Shown piece after piece: positions 24,891 through 37,614 of a DNA stretch of 37,614 nt; position 1 is the stretch's first letter; each line of letters opens with the position of its first letter. Location: positions 1 to 37,614 of the forward strand of contig JAUVLU010000026.1 in the NCBI GenBank assembly GCA_030600585.1. The letters are read 5' to 3'. Position numbers and translations under genes: made by a program. The notes beneath the pieces are model-generated. The model ran no database searches. It worked only from the letters and a program-made list of their open reading frames with translations, and was not told the origin of the DNA. The stretch comes from Candidatus Cloacimonadota bacterium (GTDB lineage Bacteria > Cloacimonadota > Cloacimonadia > Cloacimonadales > TCS61).

Positions 24891-25430
24891 TTACAAATCA
24901 TTCAAGCTATTTAATTTGATAATCTCATTTCCATCAAAATCTTTATTATTTGCAGAACTATATTTCCAACATTCAGGTTCATTTACAAAGCCTTTTCTTA
25001 CTGGATTTTGATGAATATAATTCGTTTTCTGTTCTAACATTTTGTATGAACTAATTAGTTGAGGATGAAATCCTTCTTGCCATACTTGATAATCACTTTC
25101 TAATTTATTTCGTTTTTTGAAGAAGTGTAATTGATTCAGTAACCAATCATGTTTAGATGTCTTCAAATATTCTATTATCTCTTTTGCTGTGTGCCTTTTA
25201 AAAGATTTCATTGATTCAGATAGGTCTTTTGCAGATGTAATTAAATGTAGATGATTGGGCAATATTACATATGAATATATCTTCAGCAAATTTTCATTTA
25301 TGCAGTAATTTAATGAGTCAGTAATAATTTGAAAAGTTTCTACATTTGTGAAAATGGGAATCCACTCAACAATTGTTGAAGTTGTGAAGTAAACTCCATC
25401 AGATTCTATAACTTTATATCTACTTTTCAT
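24891..25430 (-). CDS. REP-associated tyrosine transposase (RAYT, Y1/HUH family)
   Basis: The 179-aa protein is a Y1-type HUH endonuclease of the TnpA-REP group. It has YVILPNHLHLI (His-hydrophobic-His, near residue 60) and the catalytic-tyrosine motif YIHQNPVRKGFV near 138-149. RAYTs are domesticated single-copy relatives of IS200 transposases thought to bind, cut and spread REP hairpins. The gene sits between two 149-bp direct repeats full of hairpins, as expected for such a system. No inverted terminal repeats or partner tnpB are present, so this is not a standard IS. Confidence 0.9.
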   Translation of the reverse strand: MKSRYKVIESDGVYFTTSTIVEWIPIFTNVETFQIITDSLNYCINENLLKIYSYVILPNHLHLITSAKDLSESMKSFKRHTAKEIIEYLKTSKHDWLLNQLHFFKKRNKLESDYQVWQEGFHPQLISSYKMLEQKTNYIHQNPVRKGFVNEPECWKYSSANNKDFDGNEIIKLNSLNDL

Positions 25431-28845: not shown

Positions 28846-28851
28846 ATGTAG

Positions 28852-28881
28852 GGACAGCTCATTGAGCTGTCCTTTTTTTTT
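28852..28881 (+). terminator. Rho-independent terminator of leuS
   Basis: GGACAGCTC and GAGCTGTCC form a perfect 9-bp stem with loop ATT, directly followed by nine T. It separates leuS from the CBASS operon. Confidence 0.85.
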
Positions 28882-29069: not shown

Positions 29070-29097
29070 TTGACATTATTTAAAAAAACATTAAATT
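29070..29097 (+). promoter_or_regulatory. Candidate promoter of the CBASS operon
   Basis: TTGACA (29,070-29,075) is followed after 16 bp by TAAATT (29,092-29,097), 4 of 6 to TATAAT. It lies in a very AT-rich stretch after the leuS terminator and 164 bp before the first gene, so a long leader RNA with two hairpins would result. Confidence 0.42.
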
Positions 29098-29133
29098 AGC
29101 AGATAGATCTTTAGAGTGCTAAATTAAAAAACA

Positions 29134-29151
29134 GCAGGACGGATGTCCTGC
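29134..29151. repeat. GCAGGAC-GGAT-GTCCTGC hairpin in the CBASS leader
   Basis: A perfect 7-bp stem with a 4-nt loop lies between the candidate promoter and the first gene. No T-tract follows, so it is not a standard terminator. It may be a dispersed palindrome or a leader structure. Confidence 0.5.
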
Positions 29152-29232
29152 CGAAAAAGAGAAATTAATCTCATTTGTTAAGTCACGCTAACAAAGTTTG
29201 ATAATTATATTTTTCCGTCAAGTCGGTTCTGC

Positions 29233-29256
29233 ATCCTCCTGAAAAAAAAGGAGGAT
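29233..29256 (+). promoter_or_regulatory. Hairpin that sequesters the ribosome binding site of the DUF2188 gene
   Basis: ATCCTCCT (29,233-29,240) pairs perfectly over 8 bp with AGGAGGAT (29,249-29,256) across a loop of G and seven A. The right arm contains the whole Shine-Dalgarno GGAGG, 6 nt before the ATG at 29,261. In the folded RNA the site would be hidden from ribosomes, suggesting translational control at the head of the CBASS operon. Confidence 0.6.
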
Positions 29257-29260
29257 TATT

Positions 29261-29497
29261 ATGTCCAAAAAAGGGGAAAATCAACATGTTGTACCACATG
29301 AAAATGGATGGGCCGTCAAAGGAGAAAGGAACCAAAGGGCAACAAAAGTTACGAAAACACAAGAACAAGCAATTAATATTGCAACTGAAATTGCTAAGAA
29401 TCAACATTCCGACACTAAGATACATGGAAGAAATGGAAGAATTAGAGCCGGGAATAGTTACGGAAATGATCCGTGTCCACCAAAAGATAAGAAATGA
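29261..29497 (+). CDS. DUF2188 domain protein, first gene of the CBASS operon
   Basis: The 78-aa protein is DUF2188 almost from end to end: HVVPHENGWAVKGE near the start, a helix with TQEQAINIATEIAKNQ, then IHGRNGRIRAGNSYGNDPCP. The family is small, basic and of unknown role; the fold is probably two short beta-hairpins and a helix. It starts the operon with a strong but hairpin-locked Shine-Dalgarno and ends 10 nt before the CD-NTase. It could modulate the CD-NTase or bind nucleic acid; nothing in the sequence decides this. Confidence 0.88.
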   Translation: MSKKGENQHVVPHENGWAVKGERNQRATKVTKTQEQAINIATEIAKNQHSDTKIHGRNGRIRAGNSYGNDPCPPKDKK

Positions 29498-29507
29498 GGA
29501 GAATACT

Positions 29508-30569
29508 ATGCCAATAAAACTAAAAAAACAATTCAAAGAATTTCATGAAGCGATTGCTTTGAATGAATCTAATGAGTTAATAGAAAAAAGAGAGAAATTA
29601 CAAAGTTGCCTTGAGAAAAATTTAGTCTATAGTCTAGAGAAAAATGGATTTGAAAACATAAAAATTGTTAAATTTATTGATCAAGGAAGTTATAAGATAA
29701 ATACAACTATCAAGTCTAAAGATAATATTTATGATCGGGATGTAGCTGTTATTCTAGAATTAGACCCAGATACTTATGATGATCCTGTAGAAATAAAAAA
29801 GATTGTTAGAGATATTTTAACAATTGAGAATCAAAGATATCCACTTATAAAAGAACCTTGTGTTACTGTTACATATACTGAAGAAAGTGAAGAAAAATAT
29901 CATATAGACATGCCAATATATGCACAAGATGACAATGATGATATTTTCTTAGGAAGAGGAAAAGAATTTGCAAATGAAGAAAATAAAATTTGGGAACCTG
30001 CTGATCCTGAGGGGTTGAATGATTATTTTACTGAAAAATTAAAAGATGATGATGGGAAACAACTTAGAAGAATAATTAGGTACTTGAAGAAATGGAAATC
30101 TGAAAAGTATTCTAATTCTGAAAATGACAATGAAATACCACCAAGTATAGCTTTAACTCTTCTTGCTTGTGAGTATTTTGAAGCCAAGAAAATCGAATCA
30201 AAATATGATGATCTTGAAGCCCTATACTACATTGTTTACAAAATTTTTGAAGAATTTGTAATAAATAATGAGTTGTTCTCAGATGAAATCCAATCCGTTG
30301 AAATGACGTGTAATTTACCAGTTATTCCTTATTCGGATGTATTAATTAAAATGAAACAATCTGATAATAATGTTTATTTAATTAAATTCTACAAAAGAAT
30401 TTTAAAATTTAAAACAGCTTTAAAGAACGCAATAGACTCCGAATTTGATCACGAAGCAGCTGAATACATTCAAAAAGAGCTTGGTGAAGAATTCGAGATT
30501 CCTTCAAAAGAAAATACAAGCAAGAAAAGTGATTATCCAGATATAAAAAAGGAAGATTCATTTGCATGA
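29508..30569 (+). CDS. CD-NTase (cGAS/DncV-like nucleotidyltransferase) of type II CBASS
   Basis: From the ATG at 29508 the protein is 353 aa. It has the nucleotidyltransferase helix start G60-S61, the metal-binding pair D76-R-D78 on the strand YDRDVAVIL, and a third acidic residue D134 in YHIDMPIYA. The family joins nucleotides into cyclic di- or trinucleotides when phage infection is sensed. Product and clade cannot be read here. The tail after about residue 322 is charged and likely flexible, ending DSFA, a small-residue end fit for Cap2 conjugation. Upstream in-frame starts would run through the DUF2188 gene, and GAGGA lies right before this ATG. Confidence 0.93.
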   Translation: MPIKLKKQFKEFHEAIALNESNELIEKREKLQSCLEKNLVYSLEKNGFENIKIVKFIDQGSYKINTTIKSKDNIYDRDVAVILELDPDTYDDPVEIKKIVRDILTIENQRYPLIKEPCVTVTYTEESEEKYHIDMPIYAQDDNDDIFLGRGKEFANEENKIWEPADPEGLNDYFTEKLKDDDGKQLRRIIRYLKKWKSEKYSNSENDNEIPPSIALTLLACEYFEAKKIESKYDDLEALYYIVYKIFEEFVINNELFSDEIQSVEMTCNLPVIPYSDVLIKMKQSDNNVYLIKFYKRILKFKTALKNAIDSEFDHEAAEYIQKELGEEFEIPSKENTSKKSDYPDIKKEDSFA

Positions 30570-32274
30570 TGAAGTCATTAACTTATTAAAAAAGGATATA
30601 AATGTAATCAAGACAGATATTGTCGGAAACTACATTTACTTCAAACTTCTCTTGAGTAGTGGTGAATATGAATTTTACATGGGGATACCTGATCAATTCC
30701 CAAGAACACTTCCTAATATAATTTCATCAAATGCAATATATCCTCATTTTTTAACAGTAAAAAAATCTTCTCGATTATTTAGCGGTAAACCTCTTATCTT
30801 TGAGATTCTAAAGAAAGATAAGATTTCATTATTATGTTATAAGAATACTAAGAATTTAATATTATACAAAGCTTCGAAAGAGAATGCTATAAAATTTACG
30901 TTAGACCAGCTTAAGCGATTGATGACTTTATCAAAGAAAGAAATTAAAGAAGAATTTCAAAAGGAATTTATTTACTATTTTAATCAAAACATCACTGAAA
31001 AGAGTTATTCTATTGATCTTTTTATTCCCCCTATTCAGGTAGTTGCAGAGATAGATATTATTGAAAGTAAGAAAATAAAAATTGCGTTATTAAAAAACGA
31101 AACTCTTAATAAGCAATATCTGAAACCTATTAAAATAGGGAAGGGAATGTATATTCCTTTGAATAATACAAATGGAATTTTACCACCAAACTGTGGTGTA
31201 GATTGGAATAAAGAGTTTCTTTTAAAATTACTGAGTTATCATGTAAATTACGATAATTATAAAAGGATAGTAAATACTTTTATCGACACAGATAAATATT
31301 TTGTAGTCTTTAAAATGGCAATTAGTAAAGAGTTAGAAATAATGTATACTATTAGCCTTAATTTTAAAACAAAAATCAGAAAGAAATTAAAAGAAAAGCT
31401 TATTGATGACTTAGAATCAATTTCTTTTATTTCTACAAAGAGGTGTGATATGTATTATTTACAACAACGTATTGGCAGTAATAATGATTTCTATAAAAAG
31501 AATGTTTTACTTGTTGGTTGTGGCTCTTTAGGAAGTTATATAGCACAAGAATTACCAAAAATCGGAATAATGAAATTATCAATCATAGATAGCGATATTT
31601 TAGGAGTTGAGAATATTGCACGCCATAGTTTAGGATATTGCTCTACCGGAAATAATAAAGCTAACATCATGGGAATGATTCTTGAAAGAAGATTTCCTCA
31701 ACTAGAAGCACAGGCTTATCCAAATCAATTTGAAGAAATTCTCGTAAATAGAGATTTTAATCTCGATGAATTTGATTTAATAATAATTTCTACAGGTTAT
31801 ACAGATAGACAATTGGTATTTAATGAAATTTTCAGAAAAAACAATTTAAAGACTTCAGTTTTATATACTTGGATAGAAGGATATGGTGTTGGTGCTCACG
31901 CCTTACTTGTTGATTATAACAAACCAGGTTGTTTCAATTGTTTATTATCACATAAAGGTAAACTTATTAATAATAAGGCACATTTTTTATCAGAAGATAA
32001 TCCTGAAATGTTAACTGGTGACGGTTGTGGAGGAACATTTAATCCATATGGTAATATTATCCTCTTACAAGCTACATCATTGATTATCAATGTAATTATG
32101 AATTATTTCAATAATGTACACGAAAACAAAAATAATCTATTGTTTTCTATGAAAAATATTAACAGCCAAAATCTAAACTTTAACGATAGGTACAATCTAA
32201 GCCAACAAGTTCTTAATAACGGGATTGATGATTATATTGAAAAAGGATATAATGTCTGTGGCAGAAAATTATAG
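30562..32274 (+). CDS. cap2: Cap2: E2-E1 ubiquitin-like ligase of type II CBASS
   Basis: The 570-aa protein has an N-terminal E2-like domain (about 1-150) with a candidate catalytic cysteine C92 in SLLCYKN, a linker domain, and a C-terminal ThiF/E1 adenylation domain from about 300. The E1 part has VGCGSLGS (318-325), IIDSD and ENIARHSLG. Candidate transfer or zinc cysteines are C457 and C460 (PGCFNC) and C489 (GDGCGG). By family knowledge Cap2 adenylates the CD-NTase C-terminus and conjugates it to a target, priming it. The start is TTG, overlapping the CD-NTase by 8 nt, with GGAAG 6 nt upstream; no in-frame ATG lies nearby. Confidence 0.93.
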   Translation: MHDEVINLLKKDINVIKTDIVGNYIYFKLLLSSGEYEFYMGIPDQFPRTLPNIISSNAIYPHFLTVKKSSRLFSGKPLIFEILKKDKISLLCYKNTKNLILYKASKENAIKFTLDQLKRLMTLSKKEIKEEFQKEFIYYFNQNITEKSYSIDLFIPPIQVVAEIDIIESKKIKIALLKNETLNKQYLKPIKIGKGMYIPLNNTNGILPPNCGVDWNKEFLLKLLSYHVNYDNYKRIVNTFIDTDKYFVVFKMAISKELEIMYTISLNFKTKIRKKLKEKLIDDLESISFISTKRCDMYYLQQRIGSNNDFYKKNVLLVGCGSLGSYIAQELPKIGIMKLSIIDSDILGVENIARHSLGYCSTGNNKANIMGMILERRFPQLEAQAYPNQFEEILVNRDFNLDEFDLIIISTGYTDRQLVFNEIFRKNNLKTSVLYTWIEGYGVGAHALLVDYNKPGCFNCLLSHKGKLINNKAHFLSEDNPEMLTGDGCGGTFNPYGNIILLQATSLIINVIMNYFNNVHENKNNLLFSMKNINSQNLNFNDRYNLSQQVLNNGIDDYIEKGYNVCGRKL

Positions 32275-32767
32275 ACTAAAACAATATATATTACCAAATA
32301 AAAAAATATTAGAAATCAATGCTTTAATCGTTGATGAATTACTCTCTTATCGTCAAAATAATGATGAAAATGAATCTGGTGGAATTCTTATTGGTTTAAC
32401 ATCGAAAAAAGGCAACATACTAATAAAAAAAATAACAACACCATTCGAAAACGATACTAGGCATCATTTGATTTATAAACGAAAAAGTATTGAACATTTA
32501 AAAATCCTTAAAAGAGAATATATAATTTCAAACGGAATTATGACTTATCAGGGTAACTGGCACACTCATCCATTTCCACAAGCTCTTCCTTCTGTAATTG
32601 ATACTAATTCATGGAATGAATCTTTAGAAGAAGAAATAAGTTTGTCTGGTTATTTAATATTTATTATCATAAGTCAGAAAGAAATTGGAGTATGGGCAAG
32701 AAAACTTAACACAAAGAAAATAATTAAATTGAATGAAAGAGGTAAATATGAATGTAGCAATAAATGA
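32252..32767 (+). CDS. cap3: Cap3: JAB/JAMM isopeptidase of type II CBASS
   Basis: From the ATG at 32252 the protein is 171 aa. The JAMM zinc site is complete: E41 (NESGGILIG), H104-T-H106, then S114 and D117 in the H-x-H-x7-S-x2-D pattern. Cap3 proteins cut the CD-NTase from its conjugates and so oppose Cap2. AAAGGAT precedes this ATG; an earlier in-frame ATG at 32225 is possible but deeper in cap2. It overlaps cap2 by 23 nt and the next gene by 20 nt, so the module is translated as a unit. Confidence 0.93.
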   Translation: MSVAENYRLKQYILPNKKILEINALIVDELLSYRQNNDENESGGILIGLTSKKGNILIKKITTPFENDTRHHLIYKRKSIEHLKILKREYIISNGIMTYQGNWHTHPFPQALPSVIDTNSWNESLEEEISLSGYLIFIIISQKEIGVWARKLNTKKIIKLNERGKYECSNK

Positions 32768-33719
32768 TACTTTAAGTGTAATTGAAAGAGTGCAACAACA
32801 TAGTTCATTAAATGGATGGGTAATAACATTTATATTAATAATTATTCCAATTGTGTACGAGATAATTAAAAGTAACCTTTCATCAATAAAATTAATTTAT
32901 GGATTTGTTTTAAATTTACCTCTTATTAAATCCTTAAATAAAAGTGAGGGTGTTTTTTTAATGAACCAGTCCCAACAACAAAAAAATTGGATAACTATAA
33001 AAAAAGAATATTTAAAGAAAAATTTTCAAACAATTGAAATAAATTACAAAAAATTACTAAAATCAAATGGTTTAATATCTGAAATAAATTTAAGAAAAAT
33101 ATTTAAAAAGCATATCACAAAAGTTAAGAAAATTGAAAGAAAATTATTAAGAATTAATAACTTAAGTTATTGTGGTTTTCCTCATGTTCCACTTGGATTT
33201 TTTGATGGTAATAATTTAAGAAAAGTTAATAACATTTCACATATAAATTACTTTGAAAATCCCCCTTGCTCTGAACAAGGATTTTTTGAATTAAAGCACA
33301 TTTACAACGATCCTGTAAAAATTGAATCTTCGGATTTAGAGGGAATAAATATTGTAAATGAAGTTATTCTCAAAGTTGAGCAGTCATATAAAATTCAAGA
33401 TAAGGATGTAAAACAGATTAATTCAGAGCTACAAATACTAAAATTCTCAAACATAGAGATCAAACCATGGGGAATTACAAATTATGCTCAACTCGATTCA
33501 TTTAAAAATCAGTTTAGAAATTATTTAATCTTATTAAAAGAAATAGGAATAAAAAAAATTCATTTAGTAGCCACAACTCCTACACCATTAAGCTTTGCTT
33601 TAGGTTCTGCGATAGAACATCATTTCCCAGAAATTATCGTATACAATTATTGCAATGGAGTTTTTGATTGGAGTATTAGTATTCAAAAAAAGGAAATTTC
33701 ATATCATAATCTAAAATAG
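32748..33719 (+). CDS. Membrane-anchored SAVED-domain CBASS effector
   Basis: The 323-aa protein has one clear TM segment (about 24-40, WVITFILIIIPIVYEII), a second weaker hydrophobic stretch (about 47-58), a basic helical linker, and a C-terminal SAVED domain from about 130. SAVED features are YCGFPHVPLGFFDG and the late HLVATTPTPLSFALGSAIEH. SAVED domains bind cyclic oligonucleotides made by the CD-NTase; TM versions are predicted to disrupt the membrane and stop growth. It starts at an ATG with GAGG before it and is the last gene of the operon. Very AT-rich. Confidence 0.88.
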   Translation: MNVAINDTLSVIERVQQHSSLNGWVITFILIIIPIVYEIIKSNLSSIKLIYGFVLNLPLIKSLNKSEGVFLMNQSQQQKNWITIKKEYLKKNFQTIEINYKKLLKSNGLISEINLRKIFKKHITKVKKIERKLLRINNLSYCGFPHVPLGFFDGNNLRKVNNISHINYFENPPCSEQGFFELKHIYNDPVKIESSDLEGINIVNEVILKVEQSYKIQDKDVKQINSELQILKFSNIEIKPWGITNYAQLDSFKNQFRNYLILLKEIGIKKIHLVATTPTPLSFALGSAIEHHFPEIIVYNYCNGVFDWSISIQKKEISYHNLK

Positions 33720-33733
33720 CAATAATAAGAAAT

Positions 33734-33820
33734 TGGTGCAGAAGGGGGGACTCGAACCCCCACAAGCTATTGCTCACTAGACCCTGAACCTAGCGCGTCT
33801 ACCAATTTCGCCACTCGGGC
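33734..33820 (-). tRNA. tRNA-Leu (CAG anticodon), acceptor stem mismatched; probably a chimera
   Basis: The minus strand reads as a class II tRNA with TTCGAGT T-loop, long variable arm, anticodon loop TTCAGGG (anticodon CAG, leucine) and encoded CCA. The acceptor stem should pair GCCCGAG (1-7) with CTTCTGC (66-72): pairs 3-70 (C-T) and 4-69 (C-C) are mismatched and 5-68 is G-T. The 5' half suits a CTCGGGC partner and the 3' half a GCAGAAG partner. Base composition switches here, so the gene is likely two half-genes joined. Confidence 0.88.
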
Positions 33821-33912
33821 GTGCGGAGCGTTAATGTAGCACCGGGCTTGGCTCGGTGTCAATATTTGTGGTCGCGTAGCATGCTCCGCGGGATTCTGAT
33901 ATCATGGGGCGA

Positions 33913-33931
33913 GGGCCGACAACATCGGCCC
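33913..33931. repeat. GGGCCGA-CAACA-TCGGCCC hairpin upstream of the DUF89 gene
   Basis: A perfect 7-bp GC stem with a 5-nt loop lies 52 bp before the DUF89 start. No T-run follows, so it is not an evident terminator. The rest of 33,821-33,983 shows no gene. Confidence 0.45.
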
Positions 33932-33983
33932 GTCACGCGGCTCATTCTCCAAGTGATAGCATGAAGGAGTTCTCTGCACCGAA

Positions 33984-34865
33984 ATGAAGACTTACCTGGA
34001 ATGTATACCGTGCATGATGTCCCAGGCTTTGCGGGCGGGTCGGGAAGCAGGGCTGGCGGACGAAGGGCTCAAGACGCTTCTTGATGAGGTGGGGATGCTG
34101 ATCCGCGATATCCCTATGGGCAGCACTCCGCCGGAATCGGGAAAGCTCGTATATGAGAAAGTGCGGGGAATCACGGGCAAGAAGGATCCTTACTCGCGTA
34201 TGAAGGCGGCGCACATCCGCGAAGCAATAACGCTGTATCCGGAGATGAAGAAGATTGTCGGGAAAGCGGGTGATCCTCTGTTGACGAGCATTCGGCTTGC
34301 CATCGCGGGGAACGTCATTGACCTGGGAGTGAACAGGCAGTTTGATCTGATTGAAGAGATCCAGCAATCCCTGGGCCAGGAGTTGGCCATTTCCCATTAC
34401 GACTCCTTTGTCCGATATCTCGAGGAATCGACCTCAATCCTCTACCTGGGTGACAACGCGGGAGAATCGGTTTTTGACAGGATCCTGATTGAAGCGCTGG
34501 GGAAGCCAGTTCAGTTTGTGGTCAGAGATATTCCGGTCATTAATGATGTGACTCGAGAGGATGCCATGATGTCCGGGCTCGGGGAGGTAGCGGAGATAGT
34601 GTCGTCGGGAACTCCTGCCCCGGGAACTGTCTTATCCCTGTGTACGGAGGAGTTCCTGGAAATATTCAATCATGCGGATATGATCATCAGCAAAGGGCAG
34701 GGCAACTACGAAGCGCTTTCCGAGACGGATCGGCCGGTGTTCTTCCTGCTGAAAGTCAAATGTCCGGTGATCGCCCGAAACCTCGGGGTAGAGGAAAACG
34801 ATATTGTGCTGAAGTTCAGCAACGTCGATTCCACGGCGCAAATTCAAGGGGGGCCTGCACTATGA
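33984..34865 (+). CDS. DUF89/ARMT1-like protein (damage-control phosphatase family)
   Basis: The 293-aa protein matches the DUF89 family: an N-terminal CIPCMMSQALRA, RMK near residue 72, a central ILYLGDNAGESVFDR with the metal-binding aspartate/asparagine, and ADMIISKGQGNYE near 232. Members are metal-dependent phosphatases thought to remove damaged sugar phosphates or metabolites. The early CxxC marks the prokaryotic subgroup. AAGGAG is 14 nt before the ATG, a long gap. The stop overlaps the next start as ATGA. Its GC-rich codon use differs sharply from genes to the left. Confidence 0.88.
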   Translation: MKTYLECIPCMMSQALRAGREAGLADEGLKTLLDEVGMLIRDIPMGSTPPESGKLVYEKVRGITGKKDPYSRMKAAHIREAITLYPEMKKIVGKAGDPLLTSIRLAIAGNVIDLGVNRQFDLIEEIQQSLGQELAISHYDSFVRYLEESTSILYLGDNAGESVFDRILIEALGKPVQFVVRDIPVINDVTREDAMMSGLGEVAEIVSSGTPAPGTVLSLCTEEFLEIFNHADMIISKGQGNYEALSETDRPVFFLLKVKCPVIARNLGVEENDIVLKFSNVDSTAQIQGGPAL

Positions 34866-35311
34866 GTTCGTCAACCAAGATCGGAATCATCATTTGCGAT
34901 CGCTACAAGACCTGTGCGGGCGGCAAATGTTTCAGATCGCTGAAACGCAGAGAGGGGGCCTTTTCCATCTATCCTCGGGAAGAAGATGTGGAGATAGTCG
35001 GATACACCACATGCGGGGGATGTCCAGGTGGGAACATAGAGTATGCCCCGGAAGAGATGGAGAAGAACGGAGCGACAGTGATTCATCTGGCGACCGGGTT
35101 GGTGGTTGGCTATCCTCCGTGTCCCTATATCTCTTCCTTCAAGGCTCTGATTGAAGAAAAACACCGACTCAACGTGGTGATTGGCACGCACCCTATCCCG
35201 CAGAACTACTACCTGACCCACCAGGCACTCGACACGTGGAACGGCGAGGAATGGAAGGAGTTGATCGCTCCTACGTTGTCGAACGAGGAAATACGTTTAG
35301 CATACGATTGA
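34862..35311 (+). CDS. CGGC-domain protein
   Basis: The 149-aa protein contains CGGCPGG at about residues 51-57, the motif that names the CGGC domain. It also has an earlier TCAGGKC pair (about 18-24) and a later YPPCPY. The cysteines suggest metal or cluster binding; no function is established. It overlaps the DUF89 gene by four bases (ATGA), so the two are translationally coupled. A longer upstream frame exists but lies wholly over the DUF89 gene. Confidence 0.85.
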   Translation: MSSSTKIGIIICDRYKTCAGGKCFRSLKRREGAFSIYPREEDVEIVGYTTCGGCPGGNIEYAPEEMEKNGATVIHLATGLVVGYPPCPYISSFKALIEEKHRLNVVIGTHPIPQNYYLTHQALDTWNGEEWKELIAPTLSNEEIRLAYD

Positions 35312-35358
35312 GGTGAGATTTCCGCTTCCGCGGCCTTGTTATGCCCGGCGCGCGATCG

Positions 35359-35487
35359 CTATTCGCTCCCGCCCTTGTTGGATCGATTATCCTTGATCAG
35401 CTTGACGACCTTCTGCACACCTACGTCTATCTGAGGCTTGAACAAGTAGCCCAACACAACACCAACGAACAATCCAAAAAACCACAT
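35359..35487 (-). CDS. 42-aa membrane peptide coupled to hsp20
   Basis: The small frame starts MWFFGLFVGVVLGYLFKP, one short TM segment, followed by an amphipathic, basic helix (VQKVVKLIKDNRS) and a polar end. Its ATG overlaps the hsp20 stop as TAATG, with GGAG 8 nt before it inside the hsp20 end. Overlap, RBS and plausible membrane-peptide composition support it as a gene, but it is short. Confidence 0.6.
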   Translation of the reverse strand: MWFFGLFVGVVLGYLFKPQIDVGVQKVVKLIKDNRSNKGGSE

Positions 35488-36011
35488 TACTTTTTCTCCT
35501 TCGTGGGACCCTCGTCTTCGTTGACAATATTGATTTTTACGCCCTCTGTCTGTGGTTGGATCTCCCGGGGCGGAATCGAAACCGTGAGAATTCCGTTCCT
35601 ATAGACGGCTTTCACCTGGTCGCGATCAAACTTGTCCGCCGGGACGTAGTAACGCTGATCGGAAAAGCCCTTCCGCTTGAGTCGGCGCTTGAAGTAGCGA
35701 ACCCCCTCCGGGTCCTTCATCTCTTCAGGAATCGTACCGCTGAAGGTCATGTAGTCGCCCTTGAACTCCAGGCTGACGTCCTTCTCGCCGAAGCCGGCGA
35801 TGGCGAACTCGAAGACGAGCACTTTGTCTTCGGTCATGTAGATGTTGGCGGCCGGAAATGGGTATGCCGAGTAGTACTCGCGGTTCCACTTCCAAGCTTT
35901 CTCATCCGGGTTGAACTGCATTCCTTCGGTGAATGCACTGGTGAAGTCCTCGGCCGCTGAGAATATTTCATCCATCAGCTTTCCGAGATCGGGGAAATCA
36001 TGGCGTTTCAT
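35487..36011 (-). CDS. Hsp20/alpha-crystallin small heat-shock protein
   Basis: The 174-aa protein has a variable N-terminal arm (1-50), an alpha-crystallin domain (about 55-155) with NGILTVSIP, the conserved G-x-L motif near its end, and a short lysine-rich C-terminal tail. It would act as an ATP-independent holdase chaperone. GAGGAGG sits 5 nt upstream of the ATG. A sigma-54-type promoter lies 127 bp upstream, and a 42-aa peptide gene follows in TAATG overlap. Confidence 0.93.
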   Translation of the reverse strand: MKRHDFPDLGKLMDEIFSAAEDFTSAFTEGMQFNPDEKAWKWNREYYSAYPFPAANIYMTEDKVLVFEFAIAGFGEKDVSLEFKGDYMTFSGTIPEEMKDPEGVRYFKRRLKRKGFSDQRYYVPADKFDRDQVKAVYRNGILTVSIPPREIQPQTEGVKINIVNEDEGPTKEKK

Positions 36012-36137
36012 AACGCCTCCTCTGCATGCCGCAATCGGTTCAATATGATACCGGAGCCGGCAAGATATGCCCCATACTTGGGACTACCGCCCATACCGCG
36101 ACGGCCTCGGGCCCTTTCGGCGCCCGCACCTATAAGA

Positions 36138-36153
36138 TGCAACATTCATGCCA
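36138..36153 (-). promoter_or_regulatory. Sigma-54 (RpoN)-type promoter upstream of hsp20
   Basis: On the minus strand the bases read TGGCATG-AATG-TTGCA. The sigma-54 consensus is TGGCACG-N4-TTGCW, so there is one mismatch and the GG/GC spacing is exact. It points at hsp20, with a 5' leader of roughly 115 nt. The remaining part of the 396-bp gap (36,012-36,407) holds no convincing gene; the start region of the YmdB-like gene must also lie there. Confidence 0.55.
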
Positions 36154-36407
36154 ATTCCGCCACCCCTGGTATGGCGGGCGGGTCAAAATTATAACTCCTT
36201 ACAGGGTAAGAATGTATTGGCCGAGAATCGGGCTGCGTGTTGATTGGTTCGGTATCGGCGTCGTCCCGCCGCGTCGCCTGAGGTTCACGGCGCGGCAAAA
36301 AGATTCACCGCGGCGAGGAATCGATCCAAACCGTGTCGAAATGACCCGGTGCGCTGTCGATCGATGTCGTGACAGACTGGCGAGGCTTCTGATAGGATAC
36401 GCGGGCT

Positions 36408-37223
36408 TTGCGTGTACTATTCATTGCTGAAATTGTGGGGAAAGCCGGCGTCTACTGCGTGAAGTCGGTGTTGCCTGGCCTCCGGAAAGAGCTCGAGATC
36501 GATTTTGTGGTTGCCAATGCCGATGGCGCCACCGGGGGTTTCGGGATCGGGAAGAACCATGCCATCTACCTTCGCAAGCTCGGCATCGATGTGATCACCG
36601 GCGGCGAGCAGATCTACTTCAAGAAGGATATGGTTGCCCACATTGAAAACTCCTCCTACATACTGCGACCGGCCAACTTCTCGCCGGCCGCGCCCGGGAG
36701 AGGGTGGCGTTACTTCAATGCCGGCGAAGAGCGGGTGGCGGTGATTAGCCTGTTGGGACAGTCCGGTTTTGATCGGGTCCATGCCAGTAACCCGTTTACC
36801 TACCTGCCCGAGCTTGCGAGCAAGGCGAGGAGAGAGACGCCGTACGTTATCGTTGATTTCCATGCCGTTACGACGGCGGAGAAGTACACGATGTTCCATC
36901 GGGCGGACGGTGCCGTATCGGCGATAGTCGGGACGGGAACCCGCGTGCAGACCAACGACGCCGCAATCATGCCGCGCGGAACGGCAGTCATCACCGATGT
37001 TGGTAGAACGGGGAGCCGTGATAGCGTGGCCGGTCTGGATCCTGGCCCCGAGATCCGAAAGTTTATAAGTTCTATGCCGGAGCGGTCGGCTGACGCGTGG
37101 GGCGTGCTCCAGTTCCAGGGCGTAGTTCTGGATCTGAATCCGGACGGGAAAGCTGAGCGGATTGAGCCGGTGACCCGGACCTGCAAGGAGGCGTCTAGTG
37201 ACCGAACGGGCGCGAGTGATTGA
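36408..37223 (+). CDS. YmdB-family metallophosphoesterase homologue lacking most metal ligands
   Basis: The 271-aa protein aligns along its length with YmdB/TIGR00282 phosphodiesterases: MRVLFIAEIVG, RPANF near 88, VDFHA near 149 and AVITDVGRTG. Family ligands are altered: Asp8 is Glu, the GEN motif is ADG, GNH is GEQ, and GTHTHVQT is GTGTRVQT; only the histidine in DFHA is clearly kept. The fold should be intact but catalysis is doubtful. Start is TTG, chosen because the conserved N-terminus begins there. It overlaps the RseC gene by 26 nt. Confidence 0.85.
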   Translation: MRVLFIAEIVGKAGVYCVKSVLPGLRKELEIDFVVANADGATGGFGIGKNHAIYLRKLGIDVITGGEQIYFKKDMVAHIENSSYILRPANFSPAAPGRGWRYFNAGEERVAVISLLGQSGFDRVHASNPFTYLPELASKARRETPYVIVDFHAVTTAEKYTMFHRADGAVSAIVGTGTRVQTNDAAIMPRGTAVITDVGRTGSRDSVAGLDPGPEIRKFISSMPERSADAWGVLQFQGVVLDLNPDGKAERIEPVTRTCKEASSDRTGASD

Positions 37224-37602
37224 GATTCACGAGGATTCCGCGATGCTGGAGTGCTTTGAGAACTCCGGTTGCGAGAGTTGCAGCAGTTCGTTCTGCAACG
37301 TCAAGGTTCGGACATTTCAGGCCGCCGTCACTTCCGAGGTTCGAGTGAACATCGGTGACCGGGTTGAAGTCTTTCTGCCTCCGTCCAAGGCGATCGGAGC
37401 CGGGTTTTTCGTGCTGATATTCCCCCTCCTGCTCTTTGTTGGTGTCTACCTCGCCTTCGGGTTTCTCGAGAACGAAGGGGCTCAGGTGGGCGCCGGGCTT
37501 GGAGGGCTTGCCGCCGGGTTCGGGCTTGTCTACCTGATTGGACGCCGCCGGCGCCACGATCTGCCTCGGATTGTTCGTGTGCTTCACGGCACGAGCGTGT
37601 AG
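37198..37602 (+). CDS. RseC/MucC-family protein (SoxR-reducing system)
   Basis: The 134-aa protein has an N-terminal cysteine cluster CFENSGCESCSSSFC (about 20-34) and two TM segments (about 68-85 and 95-115), ending in a basic cytoplasmic tail. This is the RseC layout; relatives sit beside rnf (electron-transport) genes and support reduction of SoxR-like clusters. The start is GTG with AGGAGG about 7 nt before it, inside the YmdB-like gene. The gene is complete; the next genes lie beyond the window. Confidence 0.88.
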   Translation: MTERARVIEIHEDSAMLECFENSGCESCSSSFCNVKVRTFQAAVTSEVRVNIGDRVEVFLPPSKAIGAGFFVLIFPLLLFVGVYLAFGFLENEGAQVGAGLGGLAAGFGLVYLIGRRRRHDLPRIVRVLHGTSV

Positions 37603-37614
37603 CCGTACACCTCG

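Follow-up and report, generated by a model that had tools for sequence, protein, structure and literature searches.

A DUF2188 (PDC-S16) protein leading a type II CBASS operon in Cloacimonadota as a candidate accessory of exchangeable defence cassettes

Described systems and the Cloacimonadota locus

The first gene of the RRDM island of enteropathogenic E. coli encodes RptR, a 79-aa protein located before hsdM and composed of four alpha helices, and the hsdS-hsdR interval of this island, called a potential recombination hotspot, carries another defence system (PMC12255303). Regulators encoded upstream of diverse immune operons, namely CapK+CapS, CapW and CapH+CapP, are covered in a second report, where 88 of 443 capKS loci lie directly downstream of an RM system and 57 capKS loci are followed by a YegP homologue (PMC13373217). 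Both the use of the hsdS-hsdR interval by defence systems and the sharing of immune regulators have thus already been published (PMC12255303, PMC13373217).

PDC-S16, a candidate defence family of PADLOC whose entry consists of a name only, is matched by the protein studied here, a DUF2188 protein encoded in a 37,614-nucleotide stretch of Candidatus Cloacimonadota DNA (the window). Its candidate status was already known; the lead position of PDC-S16 in cassettes, the exchange of cargo behind it and the selection acting on it emerge from the present analysis. In a search of open-access papers, DUF2188 occurs in seven, none of which has a title or abstract opening about defence; no other paper listed has DUF2188 in these parts, and PDC-S16 occurs in none. 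The gene and its surroundings comprise the following features:

29261..29497, + strand: DUF2188 / PDC-S16 protein, 78 aa, pI 9.9, predicted b-b-b-a-b-b fold
29456..29494, + strand: C-terminal tail SYGNDPCPPKDKK of DUF2188, the majority of its positions at least 90% conserved
29508..30569, + strand: CD-NTase (SMODS / DncV-like), first core CBASS gene (Pfam, PADLOC)
30562..32274, + strand: E1-E2 (Cap2-type) (Pfam, PADLOC)
32225..32767, + strand: JAB (Cap3-type) (Pfam, PADLOC)
32733..33719, + strand: 1TM-SAVED effector (Pfam, PADLOC)
33737..33820, - strand: tRNA gene, right border of the leuS--tRNA-Leu variable site (Rfam)

An earlier reading made without database searches (the sequence-only reading) had proposed the first of these genes as an extra CBASS component, codirectional with the CD-NTase and 10 nt before it. 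The open reading frame is real, with a match to Pfam DUF2188 (PF09954) over the whole model (E 1.2e-21, 77.1 bits against a cut-off of 22, model positions 1-62 of 62) and to the PADLOC PDC-S16 profile (E 2.1e-35, 74 of 75 positions covered). Its placement was likewise confirmed, the DUF2188 stop lying at 29495-29497 and the CD-NTase ATG at 29508 on the same strand, with a gap of 10 nt. The CD-NTase, E1-E2, JAB and effector genes in one operon constitute a complete type II CBASS. These four downstream genes match type II CBASS with a SAVED effector, to which the window adds DUF2188 as lead gene; of the nearest plasmid CBASS loci, none of the 3 examined has this addition.

DUF2188 resembles RptR in being a small protein that accompanies a type I RM operon with a defence system in the hsdS-hsdR interval, but differs in sitting between hsdS and the cargo, or at the head of an RM-free cassette, and in having a single predicted helix. 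Like CapK+CapS, CapW and CapH+CapP, it is one type of protein common to CBASS and other immune operons; unlike these HTH, WYL, kinase and protease proteins, its model contains no HTH. The reading we prefer, with belief and doubt about evenly balanced, is that DUF2188 (PDC-S16) is a cargo-independent accessory of exchangeable defence cassettes, the CBASS operon of the window being one such cassette. A domain of unknown function would thereby gain a testable role, and if one small protein serves many unrelated cassettes, this could account for toxic cargo moving from host to host without killing them.

Neighbours of close and distant DUF2188 relatives

A scan of a genome collection identified 187 DUF2188 relatives, and the 80 most similar to that of the window were retained; the 30 closest loci, distributed over many phyla, encode proteins 68-79% identical to the window protein. 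Three loci (L037, L063 and L091) are duplicates of L016, L014 and L019 and were dropped from the neighbour-family and spacing analyses, and are still counted within the 80 and the 30 through their duplicates. Genes of unrelated defence systems were found to follow near-identical DUF2188 proteins at a short, constant distance: a codirectional gene begins 8-14 nt downstream in 20 of the 30 closest loci, a count that favours start codons near 10 nt (without this preference, 16 of the 20 fall at 9-14 nt) and for which the spacing at L060, where an automatic gene call was lacking, was read by eye. An HsdS-like gene is located nearby in 16 of the 30 and an HsdR-like gene in 15, and in 13 the hsdS gene stops 2 nt ahead of DUF2188, the typical RM layout being hsdM, hsdS, 2 nt, DUF2188, 9-14 nt, cargo, hsdR.

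The cargo behind close DUF2188s includes CBASS, TIRs, ThsB, AbiJ_NTD4/PDC-S32 (AbiJ-like), PDC-S06, PDC-S34, DUF6119 and NA37. Patatin, HNH-SAVED and Cap15 effectors occur in the CBASS cargo of the closest relatives, the patatin, HNH-SAVED and TIR labels denoting sequence likeness without a family search of those members, and a SMODS-NUDIX effector accompanies the CD-NTase of a less close locus (L074). Together with the 1TM-SAVED effector of the window and that of L074, five CBASS effector types thus stand beside DUF2188. A second DUF2188 copy in the window's genome (contig C2) lies between a gene judged methylase-like by eye and NA37, and among more distant relatives (in L067-L116) many lack a partner gene close by. 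If one small protein does serve many cassettes, its fixed place 8-14 nt before the cargo can also help to find new defence genes.

Of the best 80 of the 187 loci, 17 have a CD-NTase: 12 belong to the 30 closest and 5 to the remaining 50. In all 17 the CD-NTase shares the strand of DUF2188, and it lies downstream in 15 and upstream in 2; as a measure of scale, 395 Desulfobacterota genomes contain 26 SMODS matches in total. The link between DUF2188 and CD-NTase is far above chance. For the fraction of defence neighbours in general a clean null is lacking, the distant-gene control in the same stretches being itself rich in defence genes. The sequence-only reading had called for such a neighbourhood survey and had set a lack of enrichment as its refuting outcome; enrichment for CD-NTases and for other defence genes was seen.

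In broader samples, DUF2188 was found in 29 of 395 Desulfobacterota genomes (33 matches), with a CD-NTase in 2 of 31 DUF2188 stretches (30 with a gene call and L206 without) and a CapV-like gene in L195. Close codirectional neighbours in this phylum matched PADLOC at E <=1e-5 in 11 of 20 cases, some through generic domains. At L196 DUF2188 immediately precedes a CD-NTase, as in the window; elsewhere it may end the operon (L189, L190, L203) or stand alone. Among Pseudomonadota, 29 of 200 genomes carry DUF2188, and 2 of 30 loci have a CD-NTase, one of them the chosen centre. The reverse test located DUF2188 within about 1.5 kb of 3 of 26 Desulfobacterota CD-NTases, one in the chosen centre genome, and near 2 of 15 Bacteroidota relatives of the window CD-NTase; one set of 25 genomes was selected partly for a known CD-NTase. 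From the neighbour survey and the reverse test we therefore conclude that close DUF2188s often have CBASS as their partner and that the majority of CBASS loci lack DUF2188.

A DUF2188 relative is encoded in 461 of 72,556 plasmid records, of which 342 are from Klebsiella. In the 13 plasmid relatives at >=60% identity, which are interrelated so that the counts are not independent events, CapV/patatin is directly downstream in 8 (7 with an annotated CD-NTase), a TIR gene in 1, a protein of ~69 aa in 3 and none of these in 1. A divergent XRE or HTH-ImmA gene stands beside DUF2188 in 12 of the 13. At L017, L020 and on close plasmids an XRE-ImmA/IrrE-type gene, often with a PIN/VapC-like gene, occurs in line or divergent, and it may possibly be a DNA-damage-responsive switch.

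It is improbable that DUF2188 is a CBASS-specific component or regulator. From the sequence-only proposal of an extra CBASS component the CD-NTase enrichment stands, to which the frequency among the 30 closest loci, the CapV/patatin neighbours on plasmids and the place directly ahead of the CD-NTase in the window and at L196 contribute, but the designation covers too little: DUF2188 likewise leads ThsB, TIR, AbiJ-like, PDC-S06, PDC-S34, DUF6119 and NA37 genes, and most CBASS loci tested are without it. A Cap core component would be expected with CBASS and not with unrelated systems, and DUF2188 occurs with both. We see an equally slim prospect for hitchhiking, in which DUF2188 would have a housekeeping or mobile-element role and come to lie near defence genes through shared islands. 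On some plasmids DUF2188 does have genes for metals or metabolism as neighbours (an iron-citrate gene and a DUF2384-RES pair in the single Klebsiella record examined), but the fixed spacing and position within the close clade across many phyla argue against this explanation.

Several other neighbours were recorded. At L016 a small DUF3892 gene (2363-2671) lies upstream of DUF2188 and the DUF6119 gene. Directly behind DUF2188 in three phyla is a family of ~210 aa (FxNCPFD ... SIHDLSR ... NMPFELG; L021, L022, L194, L207, L252, L254, L258), for which we found no match in Pfam (L021), PADLOC (L021, L194, L207) or NCBIfam (L021, L258) and no convincing PDB sequence match; it is possibly an unlisted defence gene. 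Four Pseudomonadota loci (L253, L255, L257, L260) encode a partner of ~390-480 aa (ARFIRNTP...LQAYF) 12-15 nt after DUF2188, of which the L253 member had no NCBIfam match.

Cargo exchange and selection on the protein

Eleven locus pairs were chosen by us for differing cargo. In all 11 the homologous block, made up of the hsdS 3' end and DUF2188, breaks off within a span from -2 to +6 nt around the DUF2188 stop, and homology resumes at or near hsdR. In L040/L056, which both have CBASS cargo, it resumes at the CD-NTase; a 126-nt HNH remnant is additionally common to L048 and L044, and the resumed homology of the L049/L048 pair is a 50-nt block only. At L058 the hsdS-hsdR interval holds DUF2188 but no cargo, hsdR following it directly, and at L066 a second, truncated DUF2188 3' end is fused to an HNH-SAVED remnant before another cargo. 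The DUF2188 tree has little resolution, with stars on 2 of its 24 inner branches. Cargo labels are spread over it without regard to the branching, needing 10 changes where shuffled labels need 9.2 on average; for effector labels the figures are 18 and 18.5. The narrow 8-14 nt spacing and the exact exchange behind the stop suggest that DUF2188 is coupled to its cargo.

Exchange was also observed at the site of the window itself, which is bounded by leuS (named from sequence) and the tRNA gene. Of 10 genomes in the genus, 6 yielded the leuS 3' end, the window included, and a tRNA gene follows it in the window and in all five congeners (tRNA-Leu CAG in the five); the tRNA gene of the window is 92-99% identical to tRNA-Leu(CAG) of these congeners. 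The interval holds a membrane protein of 185-187 aa, presumably MntP-like, in four of them (G093, G094, G097, G099), DUF2188 with a ThsB-type gene in G098, and DUF2188 with CBASS in the window. Window and G098 share 129 of 165 leader bases, 122 of 195 bases of the DUF2188 core and 39 of 42 of the tail, and the homologous block stops 8 nt past the DUF2188 stop; the lead gene and leader are therefore common, and the cargo differs. In G093 (L034) the same site has an additional 955-aa repeat protein, P-loop-like and leucine-rich-repeat-like in sequence and NLR-like by eye, adjoined by a small Phd-like gene.

We regard it as rather unlikely that DUF2188 acts on its own as a small protein against phages (or plasmids), with cargo gathering behind it through its location in defence loci. 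Consistent with such a stand-alone role are the listing of PDC-S16 in PADLOC, the retention of DUF2188 without cargo at L058, orphan copies on phages and chromosomes, and the occurrence of DUF2188 as first or last gene of an operon; the two phage records examined, of 20, showed no annotated defence partner beside it. The narrow spacing and the exact exchange behind the stop codon speak for coupling to the cargo instead.

The end of homology at the stop codon would also be seen if the DNA alone mattered and the DUF2188 gene were a homology anchor for cargo recombination, a model to which the truncated copy of L066 and the tail bases shared by the window and G098 could likewise be assigned. The substitution pattern makes it highly improbable. 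For 40 pairs with dS 0.1-1.5, dN/dS had a median of 0.047 and a maximum of 0.17, and across phyla (231 pairs, 22 sequences) mean pN and pS were 0.021 and 0.906 in the tail and 0.110 and 0.743 in the core. The tail residues are near invariant despite saturated synonymous sites, so the conserved entity is the protein, not the DNA, and it is under strong purifying selection.

Fold, leader and possible mode of action

The structure model of DUF2188 (mean pLDDT 84.7) consists of one helix and five strands and does not correspond to a helical DNA-binding fold of the HTH, WYL or four-helix repressor kind (CapH, CapW and RptR type). The tail SYGNDPCPPKDKK lies mostly beyond the Pfam match, which ends at residue 67, in a low-confidence part of the model, and its 13 residues supply 10 of the 19 positions conserved at >=90% in one alignment and 11 of 27 in another. 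Neither Foldseek (best E 0.14) nor VIA (best Z 4.8, to AcrIF5, rmsd 2.8, 57 aligned), both weak, gave a confident match to a solved fold. Cas1 and AcrIF5 were set aside as structural look-alikes, their matches being too weak, as were PstA (E 0.34 by sequence) and C2HR4, whose E of 0.00023 spans a 20-residue helix. Among viral models one match, to an unnamed protein, reached E 6.4e-5. DUF1508, which we take to be the YegP family, showed no similarity to DUF2188 in a profile comparison, a weak test with a two-sequence profile.

Upstream of the gene lie the following elements:

28850..28874, + strand: intrinsic terminator-like site after leuS, belonging to leuS
29070..29097, + strand: sigma-70-like promoter TTGACA-16-TAAATT
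29132..29153, no strand assigned: 9-bp leader hairpin GCAGGAC-GGAT-GTCCTGC, identical in G098
29233..29256, + strand: 8-bp hairpin burying the DUF2188 Shine-Dalgarno, predicted in G098 too

The statement that this leader carries the only evident regulatory structure was borne out in part, in that a promoter and two hairpins are found there; the terminator is that of leuS, and a leader of this type occurs in only 2 of 121 genomes of the phylum (G000 and G098, with a weak 45-nt match in G058) and is therefore no general feature of DUF2188. Promoter-like sites as a class numbered 4 against a shuffle mean of 2.6, and the sister genome G098 matches positions 29070-29103 at 34 of 34 bases. In both genomes the leader has a better predicted fold than its shuffles (z -2.93 in the window, -4.20 in G098). 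The hairpin at 29132-29153 is unique in the genome at <=2 mismatches, so a genome-wide repeat was dismissed, and in Rfam the tRNA was the sole element to reach its cut-off.

If DUF2188 is a cargo-independent accessory, it would presumably act on a target common to all cassettes, since a single protein of this size could hardly bind a phospholipase, an HNH nuclease, TIRs and an ATPase in one manner; candidate targets are the mRNA or promoter of the operons, a factor of the host or of the RM system, and a phage signal. The basic b-sheet domain might touch nucleic acid, a guess based on its charge of about +7, and the near-invariant flexible tail could bind a constant partner. Translated first, DUF2188 might then set the timing or amount of cargo production or activity; we guess at such nucleic-acid regulation because of the charge, the lead position and the SD-burying leader hairpin in the window. 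A more far-reaching version, in our view unlikely, makes DUF2188 a universal 'licence' protein that would hold unrelated abortive effectors silent or primed via one host, RM or nucleic-acid target read by the tail; were it true, cargo could be exchanged behind DUF2188 without new regulation. A role as type II antitoxin is unlikely because the cargo genes are unrelated.

Two further observations concern the remainder of the window. Just past the tRNA gene the GC content changes from about 0.30 to 0.54, congener stretches have no homology to the window beyond the tRNA, and positions 33900-37614 may be either a foreign segment or a chimeric contig end. On the - strand at 24891-25430 lies an IS200-like (Y1) transposase-related gene, recognized by a weak Pfam match below the cut-off.
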